From Candidatus Poribacteria bacterium (GTDB taxonomy: Bacteria; Poribacteria; WGA-4E; PCPOR2b), in assembly GCA_028819845.1 (NCBI GenBank), contig JAPPKS010000027.1, forward strand, positions 248,001 through 312,000: a stretch of 64,000 nt of DNA, given 5' to 3'. The position numbers and the translations under genes were made by a program. The notes under the pieces are model-generated. The model was given only the letters and a program-made list of their open reading frames with translations. It had not been told where the DNA came from and ran no database searches. This document shows positions 7,990-22,664 of the stretch, piece after piece (position 1 is the stretch's first letter; each line of letters opens with the position of its first letter).

Positions 7990-10900
7990 CTACTTGTCCG
8001 TTTTCTCGATCGGTTCTTCGCTGATACCTCCTTCACCTTGCTCTTGTTCAATTGCCGTACTATTGTTGTTGGAACGCCACTCCTTTGCCTGTTCTTCTAA
8101 CCTGCGGAGATCGTTCGGATTTTTGATATCAATAATGTGGGGCGTGATAATGATTACAATCTCAGAGTTTTCCGTCGCGGTTTCTGTTCTTCTGAACAAA
8201 TTGCCCAAAAATGGAATATCCCCCAAGACCGGCATTTTACTTTCAATTTTCTGTTGTTTTTGCTTAATCATTCCCCCTACCACAATTCTCTGTCCGTCCT
8301 CCACGTCAATGTAAGCGCTGATTGAGCTATCTTCCGTGATTGGCGCGTTGAAGTCTGTAAACTCAATAAAGTTACTGGCTTGGATTTGCACAATCTCCAA
8401 CCCTATGGTGCGTTTACCGTCTGGTCCCGCTTTAGACTTCGCAATGTGGGGCTTAATCGTGATGTTGATACCGACAGGCGGCGTAATGAAATCGTAATTG
8501 AACAACGGCTGATTGACCGTTTCACCCAAAAGGCTTCTGGTATCAACACTCTGTAGATACGGTATCGAACGCCCGCGGCTCCACGTCGCCTCTTGGTTAT
8601 CCCGCGTTAGCAGTGAAGGGGTCGATAACGTCTTCACTTTGTTTTCCCGCATTAGTGTGTGAAGAAGCGCCATGTATTCTTTTGTCGCCACGCTGTAGGT
8701 GAAACCACTAATTTCCTGATCAAGAGCGAATTTAGTATCTAGACCCCCGACGAGGGGATTGCCAGCGCGCAGTTCTTCACCGAATAGCCTGTTCTCTTGG
8801 GCAGTCAATTCAAGGCCTAGTTTCGTGGTTTCATCCAACGTCACCTCAAGAATCTGGATGTCGATCCAGACTTGACCGCGCACGAAGTCAAGGCCGCGAA
8901 TCAGGGCTTCAACATCCGGCAGATAGCGCTGAGCCGTGGTTACGATGAGCGAATTGGTGTCTGGGTCCGCAAAGACGGTGACTTTACCGCGCAGCGAATT
9001 GATATCTTTCTGTTCACCGCGTCCACCGCGCGTGAAGTAGCGTCTCCAACTGAAACCTTGGCGGTCATCATCACCTTCCCATACTTCGCTTAACACATCC
9101 TTTATCTGTTCTGCGTTGGCGTATTCAAGCCGGATGGGTTTTGTAATTTCTTTCTGCGCTTCCGGTGTCGGCACATCAATCTGCTTAATCACCTCCCAAA
9201 TGAGTTCGAAATTACGCTGTGTCGCGGTTGAGATGAAGACTGCATTCAGCGTGGGGTATGCCTCAGCTGTCACATTTCCGGCAAGCGCGCTCCGATTTTG
9301 GTTCGGTTGATTAGGCATCCACCACACGCGCGATGTACCGCTACCCTGGCGGTATAGGTTGTTGATAATGGTCTCGACATTCTCGGCGTCTGCATATTCC
9401 AAGAAATAAGGCCGTGTGGCCCATTCTTGGTCCGGCATGCTCACGTCAAGGCGTTTAATGAGATCCTCAATGGTTTCAAAATTTTGTTCCGCAGTGGAAA
9501 CCATCAATACATTCAAGCGCGCATCCGGTACAAGGTGGACAGGGCCCTGGATACCAAAACCGGATGTATCTGTCCGAGAAAGTTCTTGCCGATCCCACCA
9601 GGATCTGTTTTGGTCCCGCCCCGCGCTGCCGCCTTCAAAGAGATCTTGAAGATTCTGGGCTATTGTCACGGCTTGTGCAAATTTCATAAAGTAGAGTCGA
9701 ATCTCTTCTTGCGGGTCGGACTGGTCGAGTTCTGTAATGAGTTTTTCGATTATCGGGAAGTTTCGCGGATCTGAGGCGATAACCACAGCATTCAAGTGAT
9801 CGCTCGATGCTATATTTACCGTACCGATAATGCCTTGATGTTCCTGTTCAGCAGTCTCTCTGCGTAAACGGCTGCGCCGGTTCTGCCATTCGCGTCTTTC
9901 CCACCTACTCGCGTATCGACCCGGACGACGTCCGGCGGTTTGGCCAGTAATGATTTCTTCGAGCGTTTGAGCGATGTCTTCAGCTATAGCGTGTTTCAAT
10001 CGGAAGATTCGCATTTCTGTTTGGACGCTCGGCGCCGTATCTAATTGCTGGATCAGTTCCCTGAGCACAACAAGATTCGGCTCGGACGCTTTAATGATGA
10101 GCGAATTTGAACTTTCGTCTGCGGCAATCTGGATGCGGCCGCGAATCATGTCAATTCCCGCGCCGCTGTTCTTGGCTTTCTCCATCATCTCACGCATTTC
10201 ATCCGGATTGCTGGTATAGCTCATTTTCCTGAGTATATTTGTAACTTGTTCTTCTTGGCGAAACACTTCGCTTAGGGTTTGTGCTAAGGACCTGGCTGTT
10301 GCATTGGTCAATGGAATTACCTCGACCTTTAGCGGTACGTCCGGATCTTCGTCCGCGACCTGCAAAATGGTAACAATCCTGCGAATATTGGAGGCGAGGT
10401 CGGTGATTATCAACGAATTACTGTTTGCGTCGGCGAAAATGTTTGCCGCACTGTTCAGTAACGGTTTAATACCGCCTACCAACTCCGATGCAGTAGCGCT
10501 ATTCAACTGGATTATGTAGGTTTGGATTTCGTCAGTCGGTTCAATCAGGTTGGGATCTGCAGTTACACGCTTGACCGGCACCTTCATCTGTACTGCTTTA
10601 TTGAATGTGGTGATTAGTACTGTTTTATTGGTACGTATCATTGTTAGATTGTACTGTGATAATACGGTTTTGATTTCCTCCAGCGTTTCCTCAATTGTCA
10701 CGTTTCTGAGATTGGTTAGTGCAAACTTCTTGTCTTTGATGTCGTTTTCGGCGGCGACAATCGTGAGATCGGCTTCCTCGCTGATGAATTTAATTAGGTT
10801 TTGCAAATCTCCACTTGAGAAGTCGAAGTCGAATCTGACGGCTGTTCCGGCTTCATCCCGTTCTGCGACTTGCATCCCCTTCCGATTGTCTTCTTCGCCC

Positions 10901-11004
10901 AAGGCATGCGTTACATACCCGGCGGTGCACGCTGTACCAATTGCCGCTAGTACCAAGAATATGAAGTTTTCTATCCTCTGATTTGTTTCGGAATTCATTT
11001 TCAT
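7990..11004 (-). CDS. gspD: Type II secretion secretin GspD with extra N-domains
   Basis: Outer-membrane secretin forming the exit channel of the type II system; 1004 residues against about 650-700 for a usual GspD. After a hydrophobic N-terminus (about 12-30) comes an N0-like domain (about 56-133). About six N1-like modules follow (about 161-217, 226-322, 329-427, 434-520, 531-610, 621-706), each ending in a pattern like LNAVxIxT followed by IxxLD. The C-terminal secretin domain (about 710-960) starts VWIDIQILEVTLDE and contains VPVLGDIPFLGNLF-type residues (PVLGDIPFLG). Linkers between modules carry W/R/G-rich stretches. It is the last gene of the operon. A usual GspD has N0 plus three N1-type modules, so this periplasmic vestibule would be unusually long. 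Confidence 0.93.
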   Translation of the reverse strand: MKMNSETNQRIENFIFLVLAAIGTACTAGYVTHALGEEDNRKGMQVAERDEAGTAVRFDFDFSSGDLQNLIKFISEEADLTIVAAENDIKDKKFALTNLRNVTIEETLEEIKTVLSQYNLTMIRTNKTVLITTFNKAVQMKVPVKRVTADPNLIEPTDEIQTYIIQLNSATASELVGGIKPLLNSAANIFADANSNSLIITDLASNIRRIVTILQVADEDPDVPLKVEVIPLTNATARSLAQTLSEVFRQEEQVTNILRKMSYTSNPDEMREMMEKAKNSGAGIDMIRGRIQIAADESSNSLIIKASEPNLVVLRELIQQLDTAPSVQTEMRIFRLKHAIAEDIAQTLEEIITGQTAGRRPGRYASRWERREWQNRRSRLRRETAEQEHQGIIGTVNIASSDHLNAVVIASDPRNFPIIEKLITELDQSDPQEEIRLYFMKFAQAVTIAQNLQDLFEGGSAGRDQNRSWWDRQELSRTDTSGFGIQGPVHLVPDARLNVLMVSTAEQNFETIEDLIKRLDVSMPDQEWATRPYFLEYADAENVETIINNLYRQGSGTSRVWWMPNQPNQNRSALAGNVTAEAYPTLNAVFISTATQRNFELIWEVIKQIDVPTPEAQKEITKPIRLEYANAEQIKDVLSEVWEGDDDRQGFSWRRYFTRGGRGEQKDINSLRGKVTVFADPDTNSLIVTTAQRYLPDVEALIRGLDFVRGQVWIDIQILEVTLDETTKLGLELTAQENRLFGEELRAGNPLVGGLDTKFALDQEISGFTYSVATKEYMALLHTLMRENKVKTLSTPSLLTRDNQEATWSRGRSIPYLQSVDTRSLLGETVNQPLFNYDFITPPVGINITIKPHIAKSKAGPDGKRTIGLEIVQIQASNFIEFTDFNAPITEDSSISAYIDVEDGQRIVVGGMIKQKQQKIESKMPVLGDIPFLGNLFRRTETATENSEIVIIITPHIIDIKNPNDLRRLEEQAKEWRSNNNSTAIEQEQGEGGISEEPIEKTDK

Positions 11005-11227: not shown

Positions 11228-12058
11228 CTACTTCTTCTCGCCGTCGCGATCGTCATCTTTCTTCTCCTCTTCGTCCTCTCTATCCTCTTTTTCTGCACGT
11301 TCCTTGCCCCGATTCCCTCGACGTTTGCCTCCAGATGCTTCCCTCCGCTTTCGCATCATTTCACGCATAAATTTCCTTCGTTCTTCTGGCGGCAGATGTC
11401 TGAGCTTTCGTTCGACACCTTCAAAATCGCGGCCTCCGCGGCCAAAATTGGAATCTCTTCCCCCCGATTTTTCGGCAGTTTCACGGTTGCCCGTCCGCTG
11501 CTGATGTTTGCGCTCATGACCCCCACCTCCGAGAAACCCTCCTGTTAAAGCTCGAAATTCCTGTGATTTCCCGTGGTGGAAAACCATTACTTTTAGTGGT
11601 TCAATCAACTCAACCTTTGCGCCGGCAAACTCTTGACCAACGCCGACATAATAGACTTGCTGATCAGCATTGCTTCGGATTAAAGCTTTGCTTTCGGCAG
11701 ATTCATGATTGACGACGGTAGCAATAAGTTCAAATGGCGGTCCCGGTTTTTCCTTGCGGTATCCGAGTGGACGGAATAGGTTGTTTTCAGTGATGACCTT
11801 ATAGAATTGAGGGTCAGGGTTCAAATCTACGCCAACGTCTTTTGGTGCTTTATCGTTTTGCTCTTTTCCTCCCATGTCCCGGAATTTTCTCAACCATTTT
11901 TTTCGAAGTTCCGGATCTTTGTGTAAGTCGGATATTGAAATGCCTTGTTTTTCAAGTATCTCCTTCGCAAATGGGGGTATGTCCATCTCGCCGCTTACGG
12001 GCAATATTCTAATGGTGAAAAATGCAAGGGCAATGTATAAAAGCAAGTGTCTTTTCAT
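11228..12058 (-). CDS. gspC: GspC/PilP-like periplasmic protein with charged tail
   Basis: Likely the link between inner-membrane platform and secretin. The protein is about 276 residues with an N-terminal signal peptide or anchor (KRHLLLYIALAFFTIRILPVSG). A GspC/PilP homology region lies at about 90-170, recognisable from NNLFRPLG, ELIATVV, YVGVGQEF and VELIEPLKVMV. No PDZ domain follows. Instead the last 90 or so residues are Arg/Lys/Glu/Asp-rich and low in complexity. I prefer the ATG at 12058. A TTG at 12067 overlapping the previous stop codon is also in frame and would suit translational coupling. The charged tail is unusual and may contact secretin, peptidoglycan or DNA; that is speculation. 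Confidence 0.75.
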   Translation of the reverse strand: MKRHLLLYIALAFFTIRILPVSGEMDIPPFAKEILEKQGISISDLHKDPELRKKWLRKFRDMGGKEQNDKAPKDVGVDLNPDPQFYKVITENNLFRPLGYRKEKPGPPFELIATVVNHESAESKALIRSNADQQVYYVGVGQEFAGAKVELIEPLKVMVFHHGKSQEFRALTGGFLGGGGHERKHQQRTGNRETAEKSGGRDSNFGRGGRDFEGVERKLRHLPPEERRKFMREMMRKRREASGGKRRGNRGKERAEKEDREDEEEKKDDDRDGEKK

Positions 12059-12063
12059 GGCGG

Positions 12064-13593
12064 TCAAAACACCTTTGCAATCATGGACAAATCAGCACTG
12101 AGCACTGTTTCCTTCCTGTCCGCGATGGATATCCTGAGATCTCTGACGAACAACCATCTTGATGACGATTCGATTAATCGAATTAGCTCGACAATTTTAC
12201 CCATTTCGCCTTTGAAGTTCATTTCAACAATATATTTTTCCGGCTGGTAGGTTGAAGGGACTTTTGCCAACACTCCTAGCAGTTCCTCTATACGCTGTTG
12301 AATGTCCGCGACGTATGCGGTGAGTGCAATTAGTTGTTCATCAAAATTGATTGATTCTGCAATCTCGCCTTCAATCATGCCCTGTTCGCTTTCACGCCGA
12401 TTGACCAATTCCCAAAGTTTTAGCCGCAGTTCGCTATCCGGTCTTAACTGAACTCTTACTGTCTGCCGTTTTGAACTAAACCCAAAAAACTTGCCCTGCG
12501 CCACGTCTAACGCGGAAGCAATTTCATTTGCAACAAATCCTCCCTTAAATTCTGCGGCACCTGCCAACTCAAGTTTTAAGTTGTGTTGTATAAATTGGAT
12601 TAGCTGAATACGCACCCGTAAATCGATGACTGCAGGCAATGGAATGAACTGACGATTAGATGGCGTCGGCTGTGCGGCATTTTCACTCTTGCTCGTGGTA
12701 GAAGTCACTAACTGAGAAGCTTGATACGATGGAGAATTTTCTTCGGTTCCGTTAGACAAATTCGATTCTACATCTCGATTTTCCGCGGAAATATCGTTCA
12801 ATTCTCCCTTTGTCTGCGGTTTGTCCGCCGCGGCGTTTTCCATTGCTTCTGATTTCCCCGCATCAGATTTATCATCATTCAGCCATGCATCAAGCATTGC
12901 GTCCGATACCTCCTCATCCATCTCCGCCATTCCGGTATTGCTTTCTTCCTCAATTGCTTTCTGCGGCGCTAGTAACTGTGTTAATTCCTCGTTTAATTCA
13001 CTATTGTATAAATAAACCACGAGACTTCTTTTCACATGAGATGTAATCGCCTCCGTATTCCTGCCCGGTCTAGCCTTCATGTTCAGTTGATAGTTCGGCC
13101 GGAGCCCCGCTTTCCCAGCAAGAATAGCAATTCGCCGTGATATCACCGCCTCAGGCTGCTCTCCCTCAAAAATGGGGCCCCGCACCTTTTTCAACGCATC
13201 TAAACTCTCGAAATCGCCATTCCGATTCTTATGCGCAATTAGGGAATCTGCTTTTCCACCAAGAGCGGGGTGCAAAACTGCCAGATCGGACTCGCGCTGC
13301 GCACGATTAAGGTCGTCTAGGTCAATCTGACTTGAGAGTACATCATATAGGGAATCGGAGATAATCTGTCCCTGAAGACCGACATTCTCCAGAAGTTTTC
13401 CGTCAATTCGTTCGATTATTTCGGAAAGGGAAACCAATTTGCGAGCGGTCTGCAGAGCGCTGCGTTTATCAGCCAACGTTCCTCCTGAAAACCCTTGACG
13501 AGCTAAACGTCCAAGCTGCACGATTAAAATGACGCCAACAACAAAGGCAACAAGCACCAGCAGTACTTTTTCACGCTTGGTAAATTTTTTCAC
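12064..13593 (-). CDS. gspM: GspM/PilO-like protein with a ComEA-type HhH insert
   Basis: Inner-membrane platform protein, 509 residues. The N-terminus TKREKVLLVLVAFVVGVILI is a short cytoplasmic stretch and a membrane helix, as in GspM. The C-terminal domain (about 440-509, EKYIVEMNFKGEMGKIVELI onward) has the PilO/GspM ferredoxin-like pattern. Between them, residues about 90-140 match a ComEA-like helix-hairpin-helix (DDLNRAQRESDLAVL, then HKNRNGDFESLDALKKV), which is not a normal part of GspM or PilO. A Ser/Asn/Glu-rich low-complexity region (about 220-320) separates the halves. The stop abuts the next gene, and the previous gene ends 11 bases upstream. Confidence 0.8.
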   Translation of the reverse strand: MKKFTKREKVLLVLVAFVVGVILIVQLGRLARQGFSGGTLADKRSALQTARKLVSLSEIIERIDGKLLENVGLQGQIISDSLYDVLSSQIDLDDLNRAQRESDLAVLHPALGGKADSLIAHKNRNGDFESLDALKKVRGPIFEGEQPEAVISRRIAILAGKAGLRPNYQLNMKARPGRNTEAITSHVKRSLVVYLYNSELNEELTQLLAPQKAIEEESNTGMAEMDEEVSDAMLDAWLNDDKSDAGKSEAMENAAADKPQTKGELNDISAENRDVESNLSNGTEENSPSYQASQLVTSTTSKSENAAQPTPSNRQFIPLPAVIDLRVRIQLIQFIQHNLKLELAGAAEFKGGFVANEIASALDVAQGKFFGFSSKRQTVRVQLRPDSELRLKLWELVNRRESEQGMIEGEIAESINFDEQLIALTAYVADIQQRIEELLGVLAKVPSTYQPEKYIVEMNFKGEMGKIVELIRLIESSSRWLFVRDLRISIADRKETVLSADLSMIAKVF

Positions 13594-13604
13594 CTACGGT
13601 CACC

Positions 13605-15359
13605 TTATTTTTCGTTGTTGTCGTCTTCTGCCGGTTCAGACTGTTTTTCTACACTTTCTGACCAAATATCCGTGTCTTCTTTCTCAATCTGACCCTCACC
13701 CGGCTGGACGTGCCGCGCTTGAGCAAACAGTCGTGCAGATTGCGGTGACAGGCTGCAAGTCACCTGCACCTGGGATATCTGTTTTTTGTCACGTTCGACA
13801 CTTGTAATCTGTCCGGATTTAATGTCTTTGACCAACCCAGATTGCGCCATGTCGCTGAGCATTTTGCTAATTTCTTGATGGGAGCTAGCTTCAACACTAA
13901 ACACAATCTTCGCTCTATCGGGATCATCAAGATGACTAATGTTCAAAGTTGTCCAAGCGATTTTTGTGCGATTGGCGAAACGAAGGCTAAATTCACGGAA
14001 AATATCCAAGGGCGAATTGCGAGGCGTCAATAGGTCGGTTATTGCCAGATTTTTGACTAATGCATTTTTTGCGCGAGATTCCGCCCCTTTTATACTTCGA
14101 ATCTCGTCGTCCAAGTCATCGATTTTCGATTGGTGGGATGCGCGGCATGTCAACCCACCTAATGCCAAACCGAAGAGCAGCACCGCTCCTGCGGCGATAC
14201 CCAAGAGCATCTGCGACTTTCTTTCCGCTTGCGTGAGCTTAGCTTTTTCTTCTTTTGGAAGGAGATCGAGCGTAATCTGACGAGTTAGGGCATTCACGCC
14301 GAGCCCCAGCGACACTGCTAGACCGCTTCCAAAACCCTCATTAGATTGGCGGTTCGGCTGTAATTCATCCAGAATTTCCAAGGATTGATTGGGGATTGAA
14401 GACCTCAGTGCGTCGAGTGGGTTCCATATACGTGCGGGAATTTGCAGTTGAGCAGCGACGTAAGTCGAAAAGCCGGAGATTCGGGCACCTCCGCCGCATA
14501 ACCAGATTTCACGGACGAGTTCACTCGCCGTCAAATTGAGTTCCCGGCTTGCCGCGCCAATCGACCGTTTCAGTTCAGTAATGAATTCTTTCGCCCATAC
14601 ATAAGTAGGTGTTGCGCTTTGAGACCGCCCGTTTAGCTCAGCGTTACCAATCTTATTACGTTCAGCGCTCCCAAAGTCGTCACCTGTTTCACTTTGGTAG
14701 TAGCGCGTTAATGAATCTCCACCGGTAGGAAAACTCCGCGAAAACTGAAGGAGGTTCCCTCGCATAACACACAAATCCGTCCGGCTTGCCCCAATATCCA
14801 CGACCAATATTCGCTGATCGGACGAATTACCGTTGAGTTCCATGCCCGCCAACACACAAATTGCTAACGTCGAAGGCAACATCGCCCTTGGCAGAAGTCC
14901 AAGTGGTTGCAGATAATCTATCTGTTTTTGTACCGCGTCCCGCCGCGCTGCAATGAGTTCCACGGACACCCCGGTCTCGCCGTCACGACGCACATCATGA
15001 TAATCGAAGACGGCTTGTTCCGGCGAGAATGGCAATTCAGTTTCCGCTTGGATAGCAACAAGACTTGGGAGCTGATCGTCAGTCACGGCATCTGGCAGGT
15101 TAGTTAAACGCCGTGAAGTCACCACCAGCCTGGGAATGGATAAGACGACTGGAATTTTTTTTCGTCCTAGTATTCTCTTCCAGAGTTTCTGCAACGTCTG
15201 TTGAATCGTCTTGTCGTCAATCTCCCCCGTGGGGTTATCTTGCGTGTACTGTTCTATTCCTGCACTAACCAATTGCAGCCCTGCCGGCGTTTGCTCTAGC
15301 TGCGATAATTTAACTGCGCTTGCGCCAATGTCAATGGATACAACCTGATGCTTAGCCAC
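13605..15359 (-). CDS. gspL: GspL as a PilM-PilN fusion
   Basis: Inner-membrane platform protein, 584 residues. The N-terminal two thirds is an actin-like PilM ATPase-fold domain: VVSIDIGASAVKL at the start, ILVVDIGASRTDL near residue 180, and IWLCGGGARISG near 280. One membrane helix follows at about 385-405 (LLGIAAGAVLLFGLALGGL), then a PilN-like periplasmic domain with ISHLDDPDRAKIVFSVEAS. GspL has the same overall layout, cytoplasmic actin-like part plus helix plus ferredoxin-like part, but here the cytoplasmic part looks much closer to PilM. It should recruit the GspE ATPase to the membrane. The gene lies 36 bases after gspK and 11 bases before the gspM-like gene. Confidence 0.87.
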   Translation of the reverse strand: MAKHQVVSIDIGASAVKLSQLEQTPAGLQLVSAGIEQYTQDNPTGEIDDKTIQQTLQKLWKRILGRKKIPVVLSIPRLVVTSRRLTNLPDAVTDDQLPSLVAIQAETELPFSPEQAVFDYHDVRRDGETGVSVELIAARRDAVQKQIDYLQPLGLLPRAMLPSTLAICVLAGMELNGNSSDQRILVVDIGASRTDLCVMRGNLLQFSRSFPTGGDSLTRYYQSETGDDFGSAERNKIGNAELNGRSQSATPTYVWAKEFITELKRSIGAASRELNLTASELVREIWLCGGGARISGFSTYVAAQLQIPARIWNPLDALRSSIPNQSLEILDELQPNRQSNEGFGSGLAVSLGLGVNALTRQITLDLLPKEEKAKLTQAERKSQMLLGIAAGAVLLFGLALGGLTCRASHQSKIDDLDDEIRSIKGAESRAKNALVKNLAITDLLTPRNSPLDIFREFSLRFANRTKIAWTTLNISHLDDPDRAKIVFSVEASSHQEISKMLSDMAQSGLVKDIKSGQITSVERDKKQISQVQVTCSLSPQSARLFAQARHVQPGEGQIEKEDTDIWSESVEKQSEPAEDDNNEK

Positions 15360-15395
15360 AATTGTGCCTTAAGTTAGATGGTGCGAAACGTCAAT

Positions 15396-16955
15396 TCAAT
15401 CCTGCTTCCAATATTTGACGACAACCTGAGGTGCGGACCGATCAATCGCCCCGACACAGGAAGCAAGAATTTTTCCTTGTGAATCGACTCCAGACGATTC
15501 GATGAGAAAGCCGTGCGACCGGTAGGTAATGAGATCTACAATCTGCCGGAACGTGTTTGGATCAATTCCTTCTACATCAAGCAGTTGAGCGGTGTTTGTA
15601 AACGGATTTCCGGTAATTGCATTTTGCACTAATGCCTGATTCTGTTGTCCGCTTGCCGGAGCTGCCTCACGGCGGTTAACAATTGCTTGGGCTTTATTTG
15701 AATCCATCCCCGGCAACAACTGTAAAATCTCGTTGGACGCGGTATTGACGTTAATTAGTCCGCTACGCGTCGCTTCGTCAACGGTGGTGATTCGATCGAC
15801 AATGCTCTTGAACTCATCTGATGTAATTAATTTAACTTCCTTGAGTTTGTCCACATTTTCAAACGCGCCCTCGTTTTCGCGATGTTCTATGATCCGTTCG
15901 GCAATTCCTTGATCGATGCCGTCAAGGGATGCTAAATTGCCTGCATCGGCGGTGTTAATGTTGACCTGTTCTTGGTTGTTCTCATCGCTTTCCTTATCGC
16001 TATTCTCATTGTCGTTCTCAGCGTTTTCCTGGTTGTTTTCCCCATCGCTGTCTTCTACGGTGATTCGATTGCGAATGTTGTCAAAAATCTGATTTGAAAC
16101 GGCTTGAGCGTCTATCAAATCGCCTATTCCCTTGAGCGATCGCTGATGGATTAGCGACTCCGCTTCGCCTTGCGAAAACACCGGCTGGTTATTAGAGCCG
16201 TGGATCTGTGTAATCTGTTGAGCATCTGCACTGTTGACGTTTACCCTGGGTTGCCCGTTAGCGTCGGTGTTTTTGTCAATAGAATAAACTGTCGCATAAT
16301 CAATTAGACCCTTCGTGTTACTTCCTTCCGCCGCACCTTGATTCCGATTTTCGGCGGAGTAACCTTGTGTGAGGCGTCGCCGGCCGTAGAGAATTTCCTG
16401 TGTCATGCCATCAATTCGCGCCACGTCCAGCACTGTCCGATAGGGGCGCCCCTCTACGATTGCGTCTGCAAGCGGCGATTGTTCTGCAGTTTCCGCCACC
16501 TCATAGCCCACAGTACCGAGCAACCCTCGAACGACGTTTACATCCGCCGAATTCAAATTGACTTTAGATTCTTCGTCCGTGATTGTCACTCGATAGGTTA
16601 GCGCGTCCCCAACGTTGCTTGCATTTTCAATCTGCTCTTCCATCTCCTGCGCCCAGTTTTCGCCCAGCGCGTCGTAGGGCGTCGTATCACTGCGCAGTAT
16701 TGCGACTGATTTCTCAAAACCTGCTTTCGCCGCATAGTAGAACTTCGTTCGTTCAACAAAATTAGCCTGCGCTCGTTGTTCGAGGCGGATTGAATAGAGA
16801 AACTGCGTTACTAGCACAGAGAGGATTGTCAATATCCACAGAGTGGCGATCAGTGACAGCCCTAATTCGCAGTTGCATGCCGGGCGGGAGCGGCAATGCG
16901 GGACACCGAATTTGTCTCCTGAGATGTATAGATGTGGTTTCCTAAAATTATTCAT
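15396..16955 (-). CDS. gspK: GspK minor pseudopilin expanded with HhH modules
   Basis: Minor pseudopilin thought to cap the tip of the pseudopilus, 519 residues against about 320 for common GspK. A prepilin segment follows Gly32: LSLIATLWILTILSVLVT. It lacks Glu at position +5, as is usual for GspK. Helix-hairpin-helix modules introduced by VNLNSAD, VNVNSAD, VNINTAD and INVNTAS begin at about residues 132, 238, 331 and 401. A very acidic Asn/Glu linker at about 303-330 separates the second and third. The last module ends near the C-terminus (VVVKYWKQD). One such region is normal in GspK; four is not. It starts 8 bases after the gspJ stop. Confidence 0.85.
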   Translation of the reverse strand: MNNFRKPHLYISGDKFGVPHCRSRPACNCELGLSLIATLWILTILSVLVTQFLYSIRLEQRAQANFVERTKFYYAAKAGFEKSVAILRSDTTPYDALGENWAQEMEEQIENASNVGDALTYRVTITDEESKVNLNSADVNVVRGLLGTVGYEVAETAEQSPLADAIVEGRPYRTVLDVARIDGMTQEILYGRRRLTQGYSAENRNQGAAEGSNTKGLIDYATVYSIDKNTDANGQPRVNVNSADAQQITQIHGSNNQPVFSQGEAESLIHQRSLKGIGDLIDAQAVSNQIFDNIRNRITVEDSDGENNQENAENDNENSDKESDENNQEQVNINTADAGNLASLDGIDQGIAERIIEHRENEGAFENVDKLKEVKLITSDEFKSIVDRITTVDEATRSGLINVNTASNEILQLLPGMDSNKAQAIVNRREAAPASGQQNQALVQNAITGNPFTNTAQLLDVEGIDPNTFRQIVDLITYRSHGFLIESSGVDSQGKILASCVGAIDRSAPQVVVKYWKQD

Positions 16956-16963
16956 TCACCCAT

Positions 16964-17869
16964 TCAGCCGCCCGGTGCTGCGTTGGGGATACTGGGCGGT
17001 TGCTCGTTAAAATTTGCGCTCATTAACAGATATACCATCGTTGATTGGGTCTCGTGCGCAACACCTTGGCGTGGGGCTTGTGTTCTCCGTTGAATGTTAT
17101 TCTCGCTAGAAACGGCAATGGTCACTTCAACTGCCTTTGGAATCATCTCTCCGCTCTCCCATGAATCGTACCATGTTTCTCCGTCAAAATACTTTAGGTC
17201 GAAGGAGACAATCTGATTGATGATTGGCACAATGTCCACCTCTATAGGATTGCCCTCGTCATCTTCGGACGGGATTGTTCCTGTTTCAATCAGCGGTAGC
17301 ACCACCGTTTCAGGATTAAGTGATGCTGTGGTCACCCGTAAAAGCGCCGGCGTCTCATCTGCTTGGCCATTTATGCCTAACATTGCACCGCGTAACTCCA
17401 AACCGCCCTGTTCCCGAATCGGATCTCTACCAATATAGTAGCTGACGCGCTGCACATCGCCGACGAGCGTTTCCCGTATTTCGTCGTCTTCATCTACCAA
17501 TCCTCTCGCCGCGTTCAATTCAGCAAGGAACGGATCGGGGGCCGCATGAGCGAGTGTTACAAAGCTGATCAGATCCCGCTCGCCGGATTCATGTGAATTT
17601 TGCTGCGAAATGAGCGTCAGCGCATCATCTCCCTGCACCGCCTGCAAATTGCTTAAATCTGTGACGATTCGGTCTAACGCAATTCTACACTTCTGGGACA
17701 TTACAATCCGCGATCCTGTTTTCTCGTATACGTCCATCGCCACATTGAAAGCGGTGTAGGTAGAACCGCTGATGATGACAAGAATACTCACGGCGATAAG
17801 CAGTTCAATTAATGTTAGTCCACCCTCATGCGAAACGTTTAACGAGTCTCGTGAATTTGATTTATCCAT
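16964..17869 (-). CDS. gspJ: GspJ-like minor pseudopilin
   Basis: Minor pseudopilin of the type II system, about 301 residues. A class III leader ends SHEGG, followed by LTLIELLIAVSILVIISG with Glu at +5, so a prepilin peptidase should cut after Gly. The long C-terminal domain with an FDLKYFDGETW-like strand is typical of GspJ. I chose the ATG at 17869, which gives a short leader and has GGAAGG five bases upstream. An ATG at 17911 overlaps the gspI end but has no ribosome site. No prepilin peptidase gene lies in this window, so it must be encoded elsewhere. Confidence 0.85.
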   Translation of the reverse strand: MDKSNSRDSLNVSHEGGLTLIELLIAVSILVIISGSTYTAFNVAMDVYEKTGSRIVMSQKCRIALDRIVTDLSNLQAVQGDDALTLISQQNSHESGERDLISFVTLAHAAPDPFLAELNAARGLVDEDDEIRETLVGDVQRVSYYIGRDPIREQGGLELRGAMLGINGQADETPALLRVTTASLNPETVVLPLIETGTIPSEDDEGNPIEVDIVPIINQIVSFDLKYFDGETWYDSWESGEMIPKAVEVTIAVSSENNIQRRTQAPRQGVAHETQSTMVYLLMSANFNEQPPSIPNAAPGG

Positions 17870-17900
17870 TCCGCCCTTCCGTCCACCACGTTTATTGCAT

Positions 17901-18341
17901 CTACCGGCCATTTTGCGGTTGCGGCATCTGTCGATTGGCGATATAGGTAATCATTGATGTTGATTCATCCTTCCCGCGCTCTAGCCACGTGACTGTTACA
18001 TTGACAGCACGAAGCCCTTCCTCGAACTCATCCGATACCACGTCGTGAACTTCCGAGCGCCAACGGTACGGAGAGTTTTCACCAAAGTCTCCCGATTCTT
18101 GACCAATGTCCGGATATCCCTCAAGTTCGATTTGCGCCATGCGGGTTTTGATGAGGTACATGGCAGTCGTCTTATCTTGCGAATTCCTTTGATTGTTTGC
18201 CGCGTTAGAAAATGATTGGAGGAGCACTGGCAATCCGAGTGAAAGAATCGCTAAAGTCACGACAATTTCAATCAAAGTAAATCCGCTGTTGCCGCGCGCC
18301 GACATATGGAGATTCGCAACAAAAACCTTCGGAGGAGTCAT
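17901..18341 (-). CDS. gspI: GspI-like minor pseudopilin
   Basis: Minor pseudopilin, about 146 residues. Leader ARGNSG followed by FTLIEIVVTLAILSLGLP with Glu at +5. The short C-terminal part with YLIKTRMAQIE and VTVTWLERGKD fits GspI, which nucleates the tip complex with GspJ and GspK. The ATG at 18341 is preferred, with a GGGG stretch about 9 bases upstream. A TTG at 18347 and an ATG at 18305 are also in frame. About 160 bases without a gene separate it from gspH, the largest gap inside the operon; I see no promoter or terminator there. Confidence 0.85.
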   Translation of the reverse strand: MTPPKVFVANLHMSARGNSGFTLIEIVVTLAILSLGLPVLLQSFSNAANNQRNSQDKTTAMYLIKTRMAQIELEGYPDIGQESGDFGENSPYRWRSEVHDVVSDEFEEGLRAVNVTVTWLERGKDESTSMITYIANRQMPQPQNGR

Positions 18342-18502: not shown

Positions 18503-19219
18503 TTAATCTCTATCGAGGTTGGGTTCCTCGGTATTAACATGTCCCAGTGCTTTAGCCTGTTGACTACTGAGCCCTTCAGTGTGGATGCGCCCTGTAGCGC
18601 CCTCGACAGTGATGGACATCAGTTTGCCCTGCAGATTTTGAATATACAGAGTTGTTTCTTCCGAAGAACCCGTTGGGGAGAAGTAAATATAATCAACACC
18701 GGAGTCTACCTGCCTTGATTGAAAATTATGGTTAGTTCTCATGCGAGATAGGGTCACATTTTTGCCCAGAGACTGCGGAAGGCCGAGGATATTGCTTGTC
18801 CGCGAAATCATTGGGCGGCCCGTCACAGAACTTTCACCTTCCAGTCTTTGCTGATTTATGACCGGTATAACTGTGCTTGAAGGACTGGCGATCGAAGACG
18901 CAGACGGGTCCGTGATTTCGAAAGTGTCGCTGGAAGCGAGCCAGTATTTGTTCAAATCAAAATCAAACACTACGAGATATGGGGACCGTTCTGTAATTGA
19001 CATGTCGCGTGCAAAACGCAGCATGTCTCGCACGCCATGCACTGATGATTTTAAGCGCGATGACGCAGTGAAGCCGCGTAGAGAAGGCATCGCAATCGAA
19101 GATAAAATTACAATCAACGTCAGTACAATCATAATTTCAATTAACGTAAAAGCTGAATCGAAATTACGGGAGCTACTGCGTTTCCTCAATCCAGTTGGTA
19201 ATGTCAGCGTTATACCCAT
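18503..19219 (-). CDS. gspH: GspH-like minor pseudopilin
   Basis: Minor pseudopilin, about 238 residues. The prepilin segment reads FTLIEIMIVLTLIVILSS with Glu at +5. The residue before the cut site is Ala (FDSA) where Gly is usual; some prepilin peptidases accept Ala. The rest has the GspH pattern, including a VRDMLRFARDMSITERSPY region near the N-terminal helix. I chose the ATG at 19219, directly after a GGGAGG sequence within the end of gspG, which gives a 47-base overlap. The frame is open further upstream to 19351, but that would overlap most of gspG and precede the leader by too many residues. Confidence 0.82.
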   Translation of the reverse strand: MGITLTLPTGLRKRSSSRNFDSAFTLIEIMIVLTLIVILSSIAMPSLRGFTASSRLKSSVHGVRDMLRFARDMSITERSPYLVVFDFDLNKYWLASSDTFEITDPSASSIASPSSTVIPVINQQRLEGESSVTGRPMISRTSNILGLPQSLGKNVTLSRMRTNHNFQSRQVDSGVDYIYFSPTGSSEETTLYIQNLQGKLMSITVEGATGRIHTEGLSSQQAKALGHVNTEEPNLDRD

Positions 19220-19619
19220 CACCTCCCTGTTTGCCATCCTTGCCCAATGAATAGAGGTCATAATTGTAACCCGCATGATTACCGGGGTATTGATAAATGT
19301 ATTCATTTCCCCATGAATCCTCGAATTTTGGTTTTTCCACATAGGGTCCATTCCAATTCGCAGGCACGGGATTGGGGGGATTCCATAGCGCCTCTAATCC
19401 TTGTTCAGTCGTTGGATAGTCACCAACTTGAAGCGAGTACAAATTAAGCGCCATCTTCAATCTCTCAATGTCTTGCCTCGATGTAGCAACCTTCGCATTA
19501 TCTATTTGGGGCATCACATTTAAGGCTATAACCCCAGCCAATAGCCCAAGAATTACGATAACGATTAAAAGTTCTATGAGCGTCACACCAGATTCACCTG
19601 CTTTCAATTGTTTCAACAA
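19173..19619 (-). CDS. gspG: Major pseudopilin GspG
   Basis: Main subunit of the pseudopilus that pushes substrates through the secretin; 148 residues, typical length. Leader ends GESG, then VTLIELLIVIVILGLLAG with Glu at +5. The conserved GspG core DYPTTEQGLEALW and the C-terminal DLYSLGKDGKQGGDG loop, which binds calcium in family members, are present. The start is TTG (TTGTTG), with a strong AGGAGGG ribosome site 7 bases before it, consistent with high expression of the major subunit. It follows gspF by about 30 bases. Confidence 0.95.
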   Translation of the reverse strand: MLKQLKAGESGVTLIELLIVIVILGLLAGVIALNVMPQIDNAKVATSRQDIERLKMALNLYSLQVGDYPTTEQGLEALWNPPNPVPANWNGPYVEKPKFEDSWGNEYIYQYPGNHAGYNYDLYSLGKDGKQGGDGYNADITNWIEETQ

Positions 19620-19650: not shown

Positions 19651-20874
19651 CTATCCAGCCACCAGATTGGTGGCTCCATAAATCGGAAGTATCATTGCGA
19701 CCGCGAGAAACCCTATCACCACACCCATAACCAAGATGACCAAAGGCCCAATTGAACTCGTCAGCCGTTCCAAGTCTTTCTTTATTTCCAAATTGTAATA
19801 TGTTGATAGCTTTGCTAGCATCTGTTCGAGATTGCCTGATTCTTCTCCAACTGTAATCATGTGAGTAACGAGGCGTGGGAAGACATTGGATTCCTGCAAC
19901 TCTTTTGATAAGGTGGAACCCCGTTCAATCCCTTTTTCGGATTCCGTTACCGCACGGGTATAAACTTGATTTCCAATTGAATCCTTGACAACTCGAAGCG
20001 CCGACAGCAATACGACTCCATTTTCGAGGAGGGTTGCCATTGTGCGCGTAAAACGCACAAGAGCAACATTACTATAAACACTTCCGATGAGAGGAAGCCT
20101 GAGTTTCAGGCGATCGGACATTAGGCGGCCGTTTTCTGTACGCACGAATTGCCTAATCCCAAAAACCGCAGCAACACACGCTACCAAAACGATCCACCCG
20201 TACAGGCTAAGAAAATCAGTGGCGGCAATCAGAAACTGGGTCAGATAAGGCAAGTCAACCCCCATGTCTGCGTACATAACAGTGAGTTTGGGAATGACGA
20301 AAATTGTTAACACAGCAAGAGTAATGATGCTAGAAACCAAAAGAATCGCAGGATAAAATAAGGACGAAATGACTTCGTTTCTCAGCAAGCGCTGCCGCTC
20401 GGCAAATTCAGATAGCCGTTCGAGTACAACGCCGAGCACGCCTCCGGTCTCGCCTGCTCTCACCATGTTGACATAGAGATCGGAAAAAACCTTAGGGTGT
20501 TGTGCAAGTGCAGCGTTGAATATCGCGCCATGTTCGACATCGTATTTGACCTGCTCAACAACGCTTCTGAGTTTCGGATTCGTAATCTGTTCGAGGGTGA
20601 TTCCCAAAGCCCGCGGCAAAGTCACATGAGCATTGATGAGCGTTGCCATCTGATAAGTGAAGAATTCAACTTCCGATGCTTTGATTCGTCCACGAAATAG
20701 TGAAAATTGAAACCGCATTTCCTCCATTTCCGAAGCAGTTTCCTCAACAATACTTGTTGCCCAATACCCTTCTGTTTTCAGGTTAGACACAAGTTCGGCT
20801 TTAGAGTTCGCTTCTTGGGTGTTACTTACGGTGTTGCCTGTACTGGTGAGCGCTTCGTAGCGAAATCTTGGCAT
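19651..20874 (-). CDS. gspF: Type II secretion inner-membrane protein GspF
   Basis: Polytopic platform protein that contacts the GspE ATPase; about 407 residues. It begins MPRFRYEAL, the usual GspF N-terminus, has two GspF/T2SF repeats (about 65-190 and 270-395) and membrane segments near 165-190, 210-235 and 375-400. The motif MVRAGETGGVL in the first repeat and MITVGEESGNLEQML in the second are family hallmarks. I chose the ATG at 20874, with GAGAG about 6 bases upstream. An upstream in-frame GTG at 20898 would add eight residues. It follows gspE by 35 bases. Confidence 0.94.
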   Translation of the reverse strand: MPRFRYEALTSTGNTVSNTQEANSKAELVSNLKTEGYWATSIVEETASEMEEMRFQFSLFRGRIKASEVEFFTYQMATLINAHVTLPRALGITLEQITNPKLRSVVEQVKYDVEHGAIFNAALAQHPKVFSDLYVNMVRAGETGGVLGVVLERLSEFAERQRLLRNEVISSLFYPAILLVSSIITLAVLTIFVIPKLTVMYADMGVDLPYLTQFLIAATDFLSLYGWIVLVACVAAVFGIRQFVRTENGRLMSDRLKLRLPLIGSVYSNVALVRFTRTMATLLENGVVLLSALRVVKDSIGNQVYTRAVTESEKGIERGSTLSKELQESNVFPRLVTHMITVGEESGNLEQMLAKLSTYYNLEIKKDLERLTSSIGPLVILVMGVVIGFLAVAMILPIYGATNLVAG

Positions 20875-20909
20875 TGATAACTCTCTTTTTTTTGACACGA
20901 AGTTTTGCG

Positions 20910-22664
20910 CTATACGACTTCCCGCGTGTCAAAATCATCCTCTTGGGTGAGACGCACAATTTCATCGACAGTCGTAAATCCGGCTGCGACCTTTCTCCAT
21001 CCATCTTCGCGCAGCGTTTTCATACCTAACCGCATTGCTGCGCGTCTGAGTTGGCTTGTCGAGGCGCGATGCAGAGTCATTTCTCGTAATTCCTCGCTCA
21101 TCAAGATGACCTCAAAAATGCCGATTCGCCCCTTATATCCCCTCCCTCGGCATTCACTGCAGCCGACAGCGCGCGGAATCACCAATTTTGAATCGACAGC
21201 TAACGACTGGCCGCCGAAAATTTCTCGGATGTAATGCGATTCTGGTTGGTACATGTCACAACAATTTGGACAGACACGCCGAGCGAGCCGCTGCGCGATT
21301 ATTCCTTCCAATGTTGAAGCCACAAGATAGGCGTCCACACCCATGTCAATGAGCCGTGTAATTGCCCCCGGCGCATTGTTCGTATGTAGTGTACTGAACA
21401 CAAGGTGTCCGGTTAACGACGTGTGAATTGCCATCTCTGCTGTCTCATAGTCTCGAATTTCACCCACGAGCACCTTATCCGGATCCTGCCTTAGAATGTG
21501 TCTCAACCCGGCCGCAAATGTGACACCGATATCCGGATTGACCTGAATCTGGTTAATCCCCTCCAACTCATACTCGACCGGTTCTTCAATCGTGATAATC
21601 TTGATATCCTGTGTATTAATCTCTTTCAAACAGGCATATAGTGTTGTTGTTTTCCCGCTTCCCGTCGGTCCCGTTGCCAAGATGATGCCGTGAGGTTTGC
21701 GAATCATTCGGTCAAACTGTTCTAGATTGTCCTCCATTAAACCTAGTTCTTCTAAGCCGTAGGAAATGGATTGCTTGTCCAGGATTCGGAGGACGACGCT
21801 TTCGCCATGGAGCGTCGCAACGGTTGGCACTGTCGAAACACGGAGATCTATCTGGCGGTTTCCTACACTTCGAATTTCCCTGCTTATCTTTCCGTCTTGC
21901 GGTCGGCGCCGCTCTGCGACATTCATTCCCGACATAATCTTGACACGGGATGTAATTGCGGATTGCAGATGCGGCGGCGGCTGCGGTTGTTCCTCCAAAA
22001 CACCGTCAATTCGAAAACGAATCTTTAGTTCACTCGGAAACGGCTCAATGTGAATGTCGCTCGCACCTAAGCGTGCGGCGTCAATTATCATCTGATCAAC
22101 TGCGTGTATCACCGTTGGATCTTGGATTAGGTCCTTCTCATCAATTCCAAAATCTTCTATTGTCTCCCGTTCAAGTGTGGCAACCGCCCCGACCGGCCCC
22201 TTAATACTCTCACTTAGAATTTGGGCTGCCGTCTTGCCGTAGAAGCGGATTATTGCGGCTTCGATGTCTTCTTCGTCCGCGAGGAGCGGTTTTATCTCGC
22301 ACCCTGCAACCAGTCGAATTTCATCGATCAAGACAACATCAAGCGCGTCAGCCATTGCCACGGTTAACGTTTCGTTCTCTAGGCGAATCGGGAAAATCTT
22401 GTTTTTATAAGCAAAGCCTGCGGGAACCTTGGCTGTTGCCTCAGACTCCGGAATAGCTCGCTCCAACAAAACGCAAGGGACATCATACTCAATGCTCTTT
22501 CTGGCAAGTGCAAGCATGCCTTCACCGACGCGCTTTTTCAGCAATTCATCCATCGAAACGCCTGTGTTCTCTACCTCTTCAAAAACCTGCCGATACGTGT
22601 CGTCGGAAATGAGGTGTGAATCAAGCATCGCTTGAGCCAATGATTTAGCTAGTGCATTTTGCAT
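20910..22664 (-). CDS. gspE: Type II secretion ATPase GspE
   Basis: Cytoplasmic hexameric ATPase powering pseudopilus assembly; 584 residues. An N-terminal MshEN/T2SSE_N domain (about 1-150) precedes the ATPase core. The Walker A GPTGSGKTTT lies near residue 330. LRHILRQDPDKVLVGEIRD carries the Walker B region, and STLHTNNAPGAITRL the His box. A four-cysteine zinc motif (CPNC, then CSEC about 40 residues later) lies near 455-500, as in GspE/PilB. It is the first gene of the secretion operon. A modest AGG-containing ribosome site precedes the ATG, and no clear promoter was recognised upstream. Confidence 0.95.
   Translation of the reverse strand: MQNALAKSLAQAMLDSHLISDDTYRQVFEEVENTGVSMDELLKKRVGEGMLALARKSIEYDVPCVLLERAIPESEATAKVPAGFAYKNKIFPIRLENETLTVAMADALDVVLIDEIRLVAGCEIKPLLADEEDIEAAIIRFYGKTAAQILSESIKGPVGAVATLERETIEDFGIDEKDLIQDPTVIHAVDQMIIDAARLGASDIHIEPFPSELKIRFRIDGVLEEQPQPPPHLQSAITSRVKIMSGMNVAERRRPQDGKISREIRSVGNRQIDLRVSTVPTVATLHGESVVLRILDKQSISYGLEELGLMEDNLEQFDRMIRKPHGIILATGPTGSGKTTTLYACLKEINTQDIKIITIEEPVEYELEGINQIQVNPDIGVTFAAGLRHILRQDPDKVLVGEIRDYETAEMAIHTSLTGHLVFSTLHTNNAPGAITRLIDMGVDAYLVASTLEGIIAQRLARRVCPNCCDMYQPESHYIREIFGGQSLAVDSKLVIPRAVGCSECRGRGYKGRIGIFEVILMSEELREMTLHRASTSQLRRAAMRLGMKTLREDGWRKVAAGFTTVDEIVRLTQEDDFDTREVV

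Follow-up and report, generated by a model that had tools for sequence, protein, structure and literature searches.

A type II secretion system (T2SS) operon of a Candidatus Poribacteria bacterium encodes helix-hairpin-helix (HhH) modules in two of its proteins, four in the pseudopilus-tip protein GspK and one, degenerate, in the platform protein GspM; these are likely to be structural modules with a packing role in tip and platform, in which the DNA-contact signature of the fold has been lost. Since the DNA-gripping residues are missing, the modules most likely pack parts of the machine and do not handle DNA.

The source genome comprises 35 contigs (4.6 Mb), and its nearest named relatives are all Candidatus Poribacteria. 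The window, meaning the whole stretch of 64,000 nt that was analysed, contains one T2SS operon, which is complete and lies on the minus strand:

20910..22664, minus strand: gspE, the sole T2SSE-family ATPase match in the genome (E 1.4e-130)
19651-20898, minus strand: GspF, part of the T2SS operon
19173-19619, minus strand: GspG, part of the T2SS operon
between GspG and GspJ, minus strand: GspH and GspI, part of the T2SS operon
16964-17911, minus strand: GspJ, part of the T2SS operon
15396..16955, minus strand: gspK, 519 aa, the minor pseudopilin at the pseudopilus tip, carrying four HhH/SAM-like modules (HHH_3, T2SSK, NF037980 and XcpX fold matches)
13605..15359, minus strand: gspL, lying between gspK and gspM, with a PilM-like domain and a membrane and periplasmic part (PilM_2 9.4e-31, weak PilN match)
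12064..13593, minus strand: gspM-like, encoding a PilO-like platform protein of the inner membrane, 509 aa (T2SSM_b and XpsM matched weakly; PilO and Amuc_1100 fold matches)
11228-12067, minus strand: GspC-like protein, part of the T2SS operon
7990-11004, minus strand: secretin GspD, 1004 aa, with six Secretin_N stretches (Pfam)

GspD is long, and three is the usual number of Secretin_N stretches in this protein. Among the GspL relatives (L037, L040, L042 and L043) several have long acidic low-complexity C-terminal extensions; the window GspL has none.

The window GspK is a GspK both by family and by fold. It matches Pfam HHH_3 (3.3e-32) and T2SSK (5.3e-16; 59.2 bits, above the Pfam cut-off of 24.2), the ComEA HhH region model TIGR00426 (1.2e-21) and the T2SS_GspK model NF037980 (3.6e-27); the last match, at 95.7 bits, falls under the NCBIfam equivalog cut-off of 130, as is to be expected in a divergent phylum whose GspK has additional modules. 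The protein starts with a prepilin-like N-terminal helix, GLSLIATLWILTILSVL, with no Glu at +5, and its gene sits in the order gspG-H-I-J-K-L-M. E. coli GspK has two Pfam insert domains, T2SSK_1st (3e-31) and T2SSK. The first of these (PF21687) was not found in the window GspK up to E 1, which marks an insert variant only, and all 17 aligned relatives have HHH_3 together with T2SSK. E. coli GspK as a single sequence has diverged too far for alignment with the Poribacterial profile, and the two are tied through Pfam T2SSK instead. Pfam T2SSK also matches the ComEA of the same genome (7e-4), which makes the domain usual in GspK a distant relative of HhH in its own right; the PsbU profile matches 11 of 17 GspK proteins.

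The earlier note had described four GspK modules opening with VNxNxAD/S, and all four are found, mutually related by profile comparison (hhalign):

16386..16565, minus strand: module A, VNLNSAD, residues 131-190; profile match to B, C and D with E 3e-7 to 5e-8 (5e-8 to C); GxG in 0/48 relatives
16059..16250, minus strand: module B, VNVNSAD, residues 236-299; profile match to C with E 7e-13; GxG in 2/48
15783..15968, minus strand: module C, VNINTAD, hairpin GID, residues 330-391; best HHH_3 stretch 327-390; Asp at the second hairpin Gly position in 47/48
15519..15758, minus strand: module D, INVNTAS, hairpin GMD, residues 400-479; profile match to C with E 7e-16; Asp in 47/48

This four-module layout is conserved throughout the alignment. 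Structure models of GspK and GspM are of moderate confidence (pLDDT about 67, pTM 0.50-0.56). The best solved match of the GspK AlphaFold model (mean pLDDT 67) is the ordinary tip protein, XcpX/GspK (9a1f_T, E 8e-4), and ComEA (8dss_B) is matched locally (rmsd 1.8, probability 1.0, E 0.1). In the model the four modules take up the position of the E. coli insert domains between the pilin strands, and module D continues directly into the C-terminal strands (predicted at 483-490 and 496-505), much as the second insert domain does in ordinary GspK.

Published experiments point to the importance of the second hairpin glycine. In Vibrio cholerae ComEA, either G60V or G60E leaves the cells non-transformable, whereas G60A is tolerated; K63, which corresponds to K164 of Bacillus subtilis, is essential (PMC3879209; PMC9747964). 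At least one GxG hairpin is present in 29 of 30 stand-alone Poribacteria ComEAs, and both in 23, whereas GxG occurs in only 3/192 GspK modules and 0/18 GspM inserts. GxD is found in its place in module C (43/48) and module D (46/48), the Asp occupying the position changed in G60E, so that these modules resemble a ComEA variant in which uptake is abolished. Mean net charge, which is not a measure of surface electrostatics, is 0.1 for ComEA and -0.9 for the GspM inserts; GspK modules A to D average -2.8, -5.2, -5.5 and -8.2. The K164-equivalent Lys is lost in module C and kept in module D and GspM, and Poribacterial ComEA mostly has Met there; because ComEA itself mostly does without this Lys, the residue does not discriminate and was set aside as an indicator of DNA binding. 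The idea, also raised in the earlier note, that the modules handle DNA is thus not supported at the level of sequence: they lack the GxG hairpin and, judged by net charge only, a basic surface, and the canonical uptake proteins are encoded elsewhere.

Those proteins are a stand-alone canonical ComEA (SLBB plus HhH, 219 aa), a separate gene on contig C30, and ComEC on contig C31, both away from the operon. Across the phylum, a ComEA-type HhH match is present in 85/85 genomes (some of these matches are GspK, yet stand-alone copies over the cut-off occur across families) and ComEC in 80/85, and both are kept in genomes with and without the GspM insert. PilT or PilB was not found in this genome or in nearly all genomes of the order, which keep ComEA and ComEC, and nearly all of them, like this one, have just one T2SSE-family ATPase; here it lies in the T2SS operon. 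A second secretin (835 aa; G000:C15, L165:8516-12401) adjoins a protein that is PilM/PilN-like by eye and has no Pfam match. This locus was considered as a separate pilus and rejected, since beside its secretin neither a filament ATPase nor pilins could be recognised.

If DNA uptake uses a type IV filament in this organism, the T2SS is therefore the sole motor in sight, which keeps alive, at low probability, a reading in which the HhH modules bind DNA and the T2SS doubles as an uptake pseudopilus feeding ComEA and ComEC, the GspK tip serving as DNA receptor and the GspM module passing it on in the periplasm, together a non-canonical relay for DNA or DNA-protein. It would draw on the single ATPase of a genome that retains ComEC and ComEA, and on the Lys kept in module D and GspM, which also count among the points against packing. 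There are precedents as well: Acinetobacter baumannii requires XcpV and XcpW, minor pseudopilins of the T2SS, for transformation, although that role is reported to be independent of the T2SS platform (PMC8811193), and the GspK-like tip pilin ComZ of Thermus binds DNA (PMC6561018). We nevertheless consider this reading improbable, given the acidic modules with GxD in C and D where GxG is gone, the large family (f3) that has no GspM insert and still has ComEA and ComEC, and the occurrence of ComEC also in bacteria not known for DNA uptake.

The GspM protein reaches neither the T2SSM nor the XpsM family cut-off, giving weak matches only, and its assignment rests on operon position and a PilO-like fold, the model resembling PilO (5uvr) and Amuc_1100. 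Its HhH region is marginal in the window protein by itself: HHH_3 gives E 0.046 and 14.3 bits, short of the cut-off of 27, and the comE model 9.2e-5 at residues 93-139. As the HHH_3 value is non-significant, relatives are required, and the orthologous GspM proteins of four class-level relatives exceed the HHH_3 cut-off (45.0, 43.0, 27.7 and 27.7 bits). The earlier note had the span right, at around 90-140; comparison with relatives that lack the insert sets it at about 75-139. The GspM features are:

13177..13371, minus strand: GspM insert, residues 75-139, a degenerate HhH with core 93-139 (comE 9.2e-5; presence or absence by family; orthologues above the HHH_3 cut-off; hhalign to GspK)
about 12445..12585, minus strand: remnant of a Jag_N-like domain, residues about 337-383 (GFFGFSSK aligned by eye to orthologues; the window protein itself stays under the threshold)

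The Jag_N domain (PF14804) itself is found in GspM of families f6 and f8 (E 3e-15 and 1e-16; L119:529-2022 and L120:5646-6962), and the window and f3 proteins have only a GFLGxGxK-type remnant of it left. It is unexpected in a T2SS platform protein, being otherwise known from the RNA-binding regulator KhpB/Jag.

In GspM of the window type LHPAL replaces the hairpin GxG. A chance or low-complexity match with no HhH present would explain both the low score of the window protein alone and the fold search with the GspM model, in which Foldseek listed no ComEA among the top 50. We find this hardly credible with four orthologues above the cut-off. The insert of the window clade also matches GspK by hhalign with E 4e-7 and a score of 48.9, the best of 100 column shuffles reaching under half of that (24.1), and the insert-free GspM proteins of families f3, f9 and f10 give no match. 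By these sequence comparisons the HhH features of GspK and GspM are real, homologous and above chance.

Our GspM survey covered the phylum of the window (85 genomes). Families f1, f2, f4, f5, f6 and f8 have the insert, f7 has a degenerate form of it, and f3, f9 and f10 have none. Placed on a GspL tree, a quick tree with some long branches, this distribution takes three changes if the degenerate state is counted and fits one gain and one clean loss. A single origin of the insert near the base of the class, followed by its loss in one large family, f3, is thus probable.

As to its source, the four outgroup sequences of the GspM insert give an hhalign score of 83.3 (E 1.6e-15) with the B end of GspK plus module C, against 60.7 for module C alone and 64.9 for ComEA, the match to GspK extending about 20 residues further upstream into the end of module B. 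Since the combined B-end and C match beats either C alone or ComEA, derivation of the GspM insert from GspK is favoured by the profile scores, though not proved. The module might instead have been captured from ComEA and have since decayed, whatever its present role, in keeping with outgroup inserts that match ComEA about as well as they match module C alone. We think this rather unlikely in view of the upstream extension and of the outgroup hairpins, which read GxD in 3/4 inserts, as in GspK, and GxG in none. In a tree built from these short modules, ComEA, B, C and D stand apart from one another and from the GspM modules, but the last are left unplaced, so the tree does not settle their origin.

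In the structural reading that we prefer, an ordinary T2SS operon would have had its normal GspK insert enlarged by tandem expansion to four HhH/SAM-like modules, and a sister module would have been placed in the periplasmic stalk of GspM. The modules retain the HhH fold without its GxG phosphate-binding hairpins. Those of GspK would give the pseudopilus a bulky cap at its tip, where substrate or secretin is met, and through that of GspM the platform may dock to the nascent tip or to platform subunits next to it. The earlier note had offered a shared structural packing module as its other suggestion. The shared module is supported by the homology of the GspM insert to the B end and C of GspK and by the best GspK fold match being XcpX/GspK; we infer the packing interaction itself, be the partner of GspK GspM or another protein.

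A fold usually annotated as DNA-binding, and automatically named ComEA-like, has thus been multiplied in a pseudopilus tip and is shared with the assembly platform. We know of no close definition of the contact between tip and platform in the T2SS, and the modules offer a testable clue to their meeting. They also carry a warning that HhH matches alone are insufficient to call DNA uptake. With a single filament ATPase, ComEA and ComEC, Poribacteria are useful for asking whether a T2SS serves DNA uptake. Our literature search found no paper joining GspK or GspM with helix-hairpin-helix.

Poribacterial GspK shares with ordinary GspK (XcpX of Pseudomonas aeruginosa, GspK of E. coli) the N-terminal pilin helix, a helical insert between pilin strands, T2SSK and the place in the operon. 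It differs in having four HhH/SAM-like modules with acidic linkers, not T2SSK_1st plus T2SSK, and in matching HHH_3/ComEA more strongly than T2SSK. With the ComEA DNA receptor it has in common the VNINTA opening, paired HhH motifs and the local structural match noted above, but its modules lack GxG hairpins, are acidic and are part of a pseudopilin. The GspM protein resembles GspM/PilO in its N-terminal membrane helix, coiled coil, C-terminal ferredoxin-like fold and operon position; E. coli GspM has 153 aa, in contrast to the 509 aa, the HhH insert and, in relatives, the Jag_N domain found here. In the photosystem, the HhH-fold subunit PsbU plays a structural part. Together with Pasteurella ComE1, which binds fibronectin via its HhH motifs (PMC2601033), it exemplifies an extracytoplasmic HhH fold with protein contacts, as we propose for GspK and GspM; both, unlike GspK and GspM, lie outside any secretion system, and ComE1 binds DNA as well.
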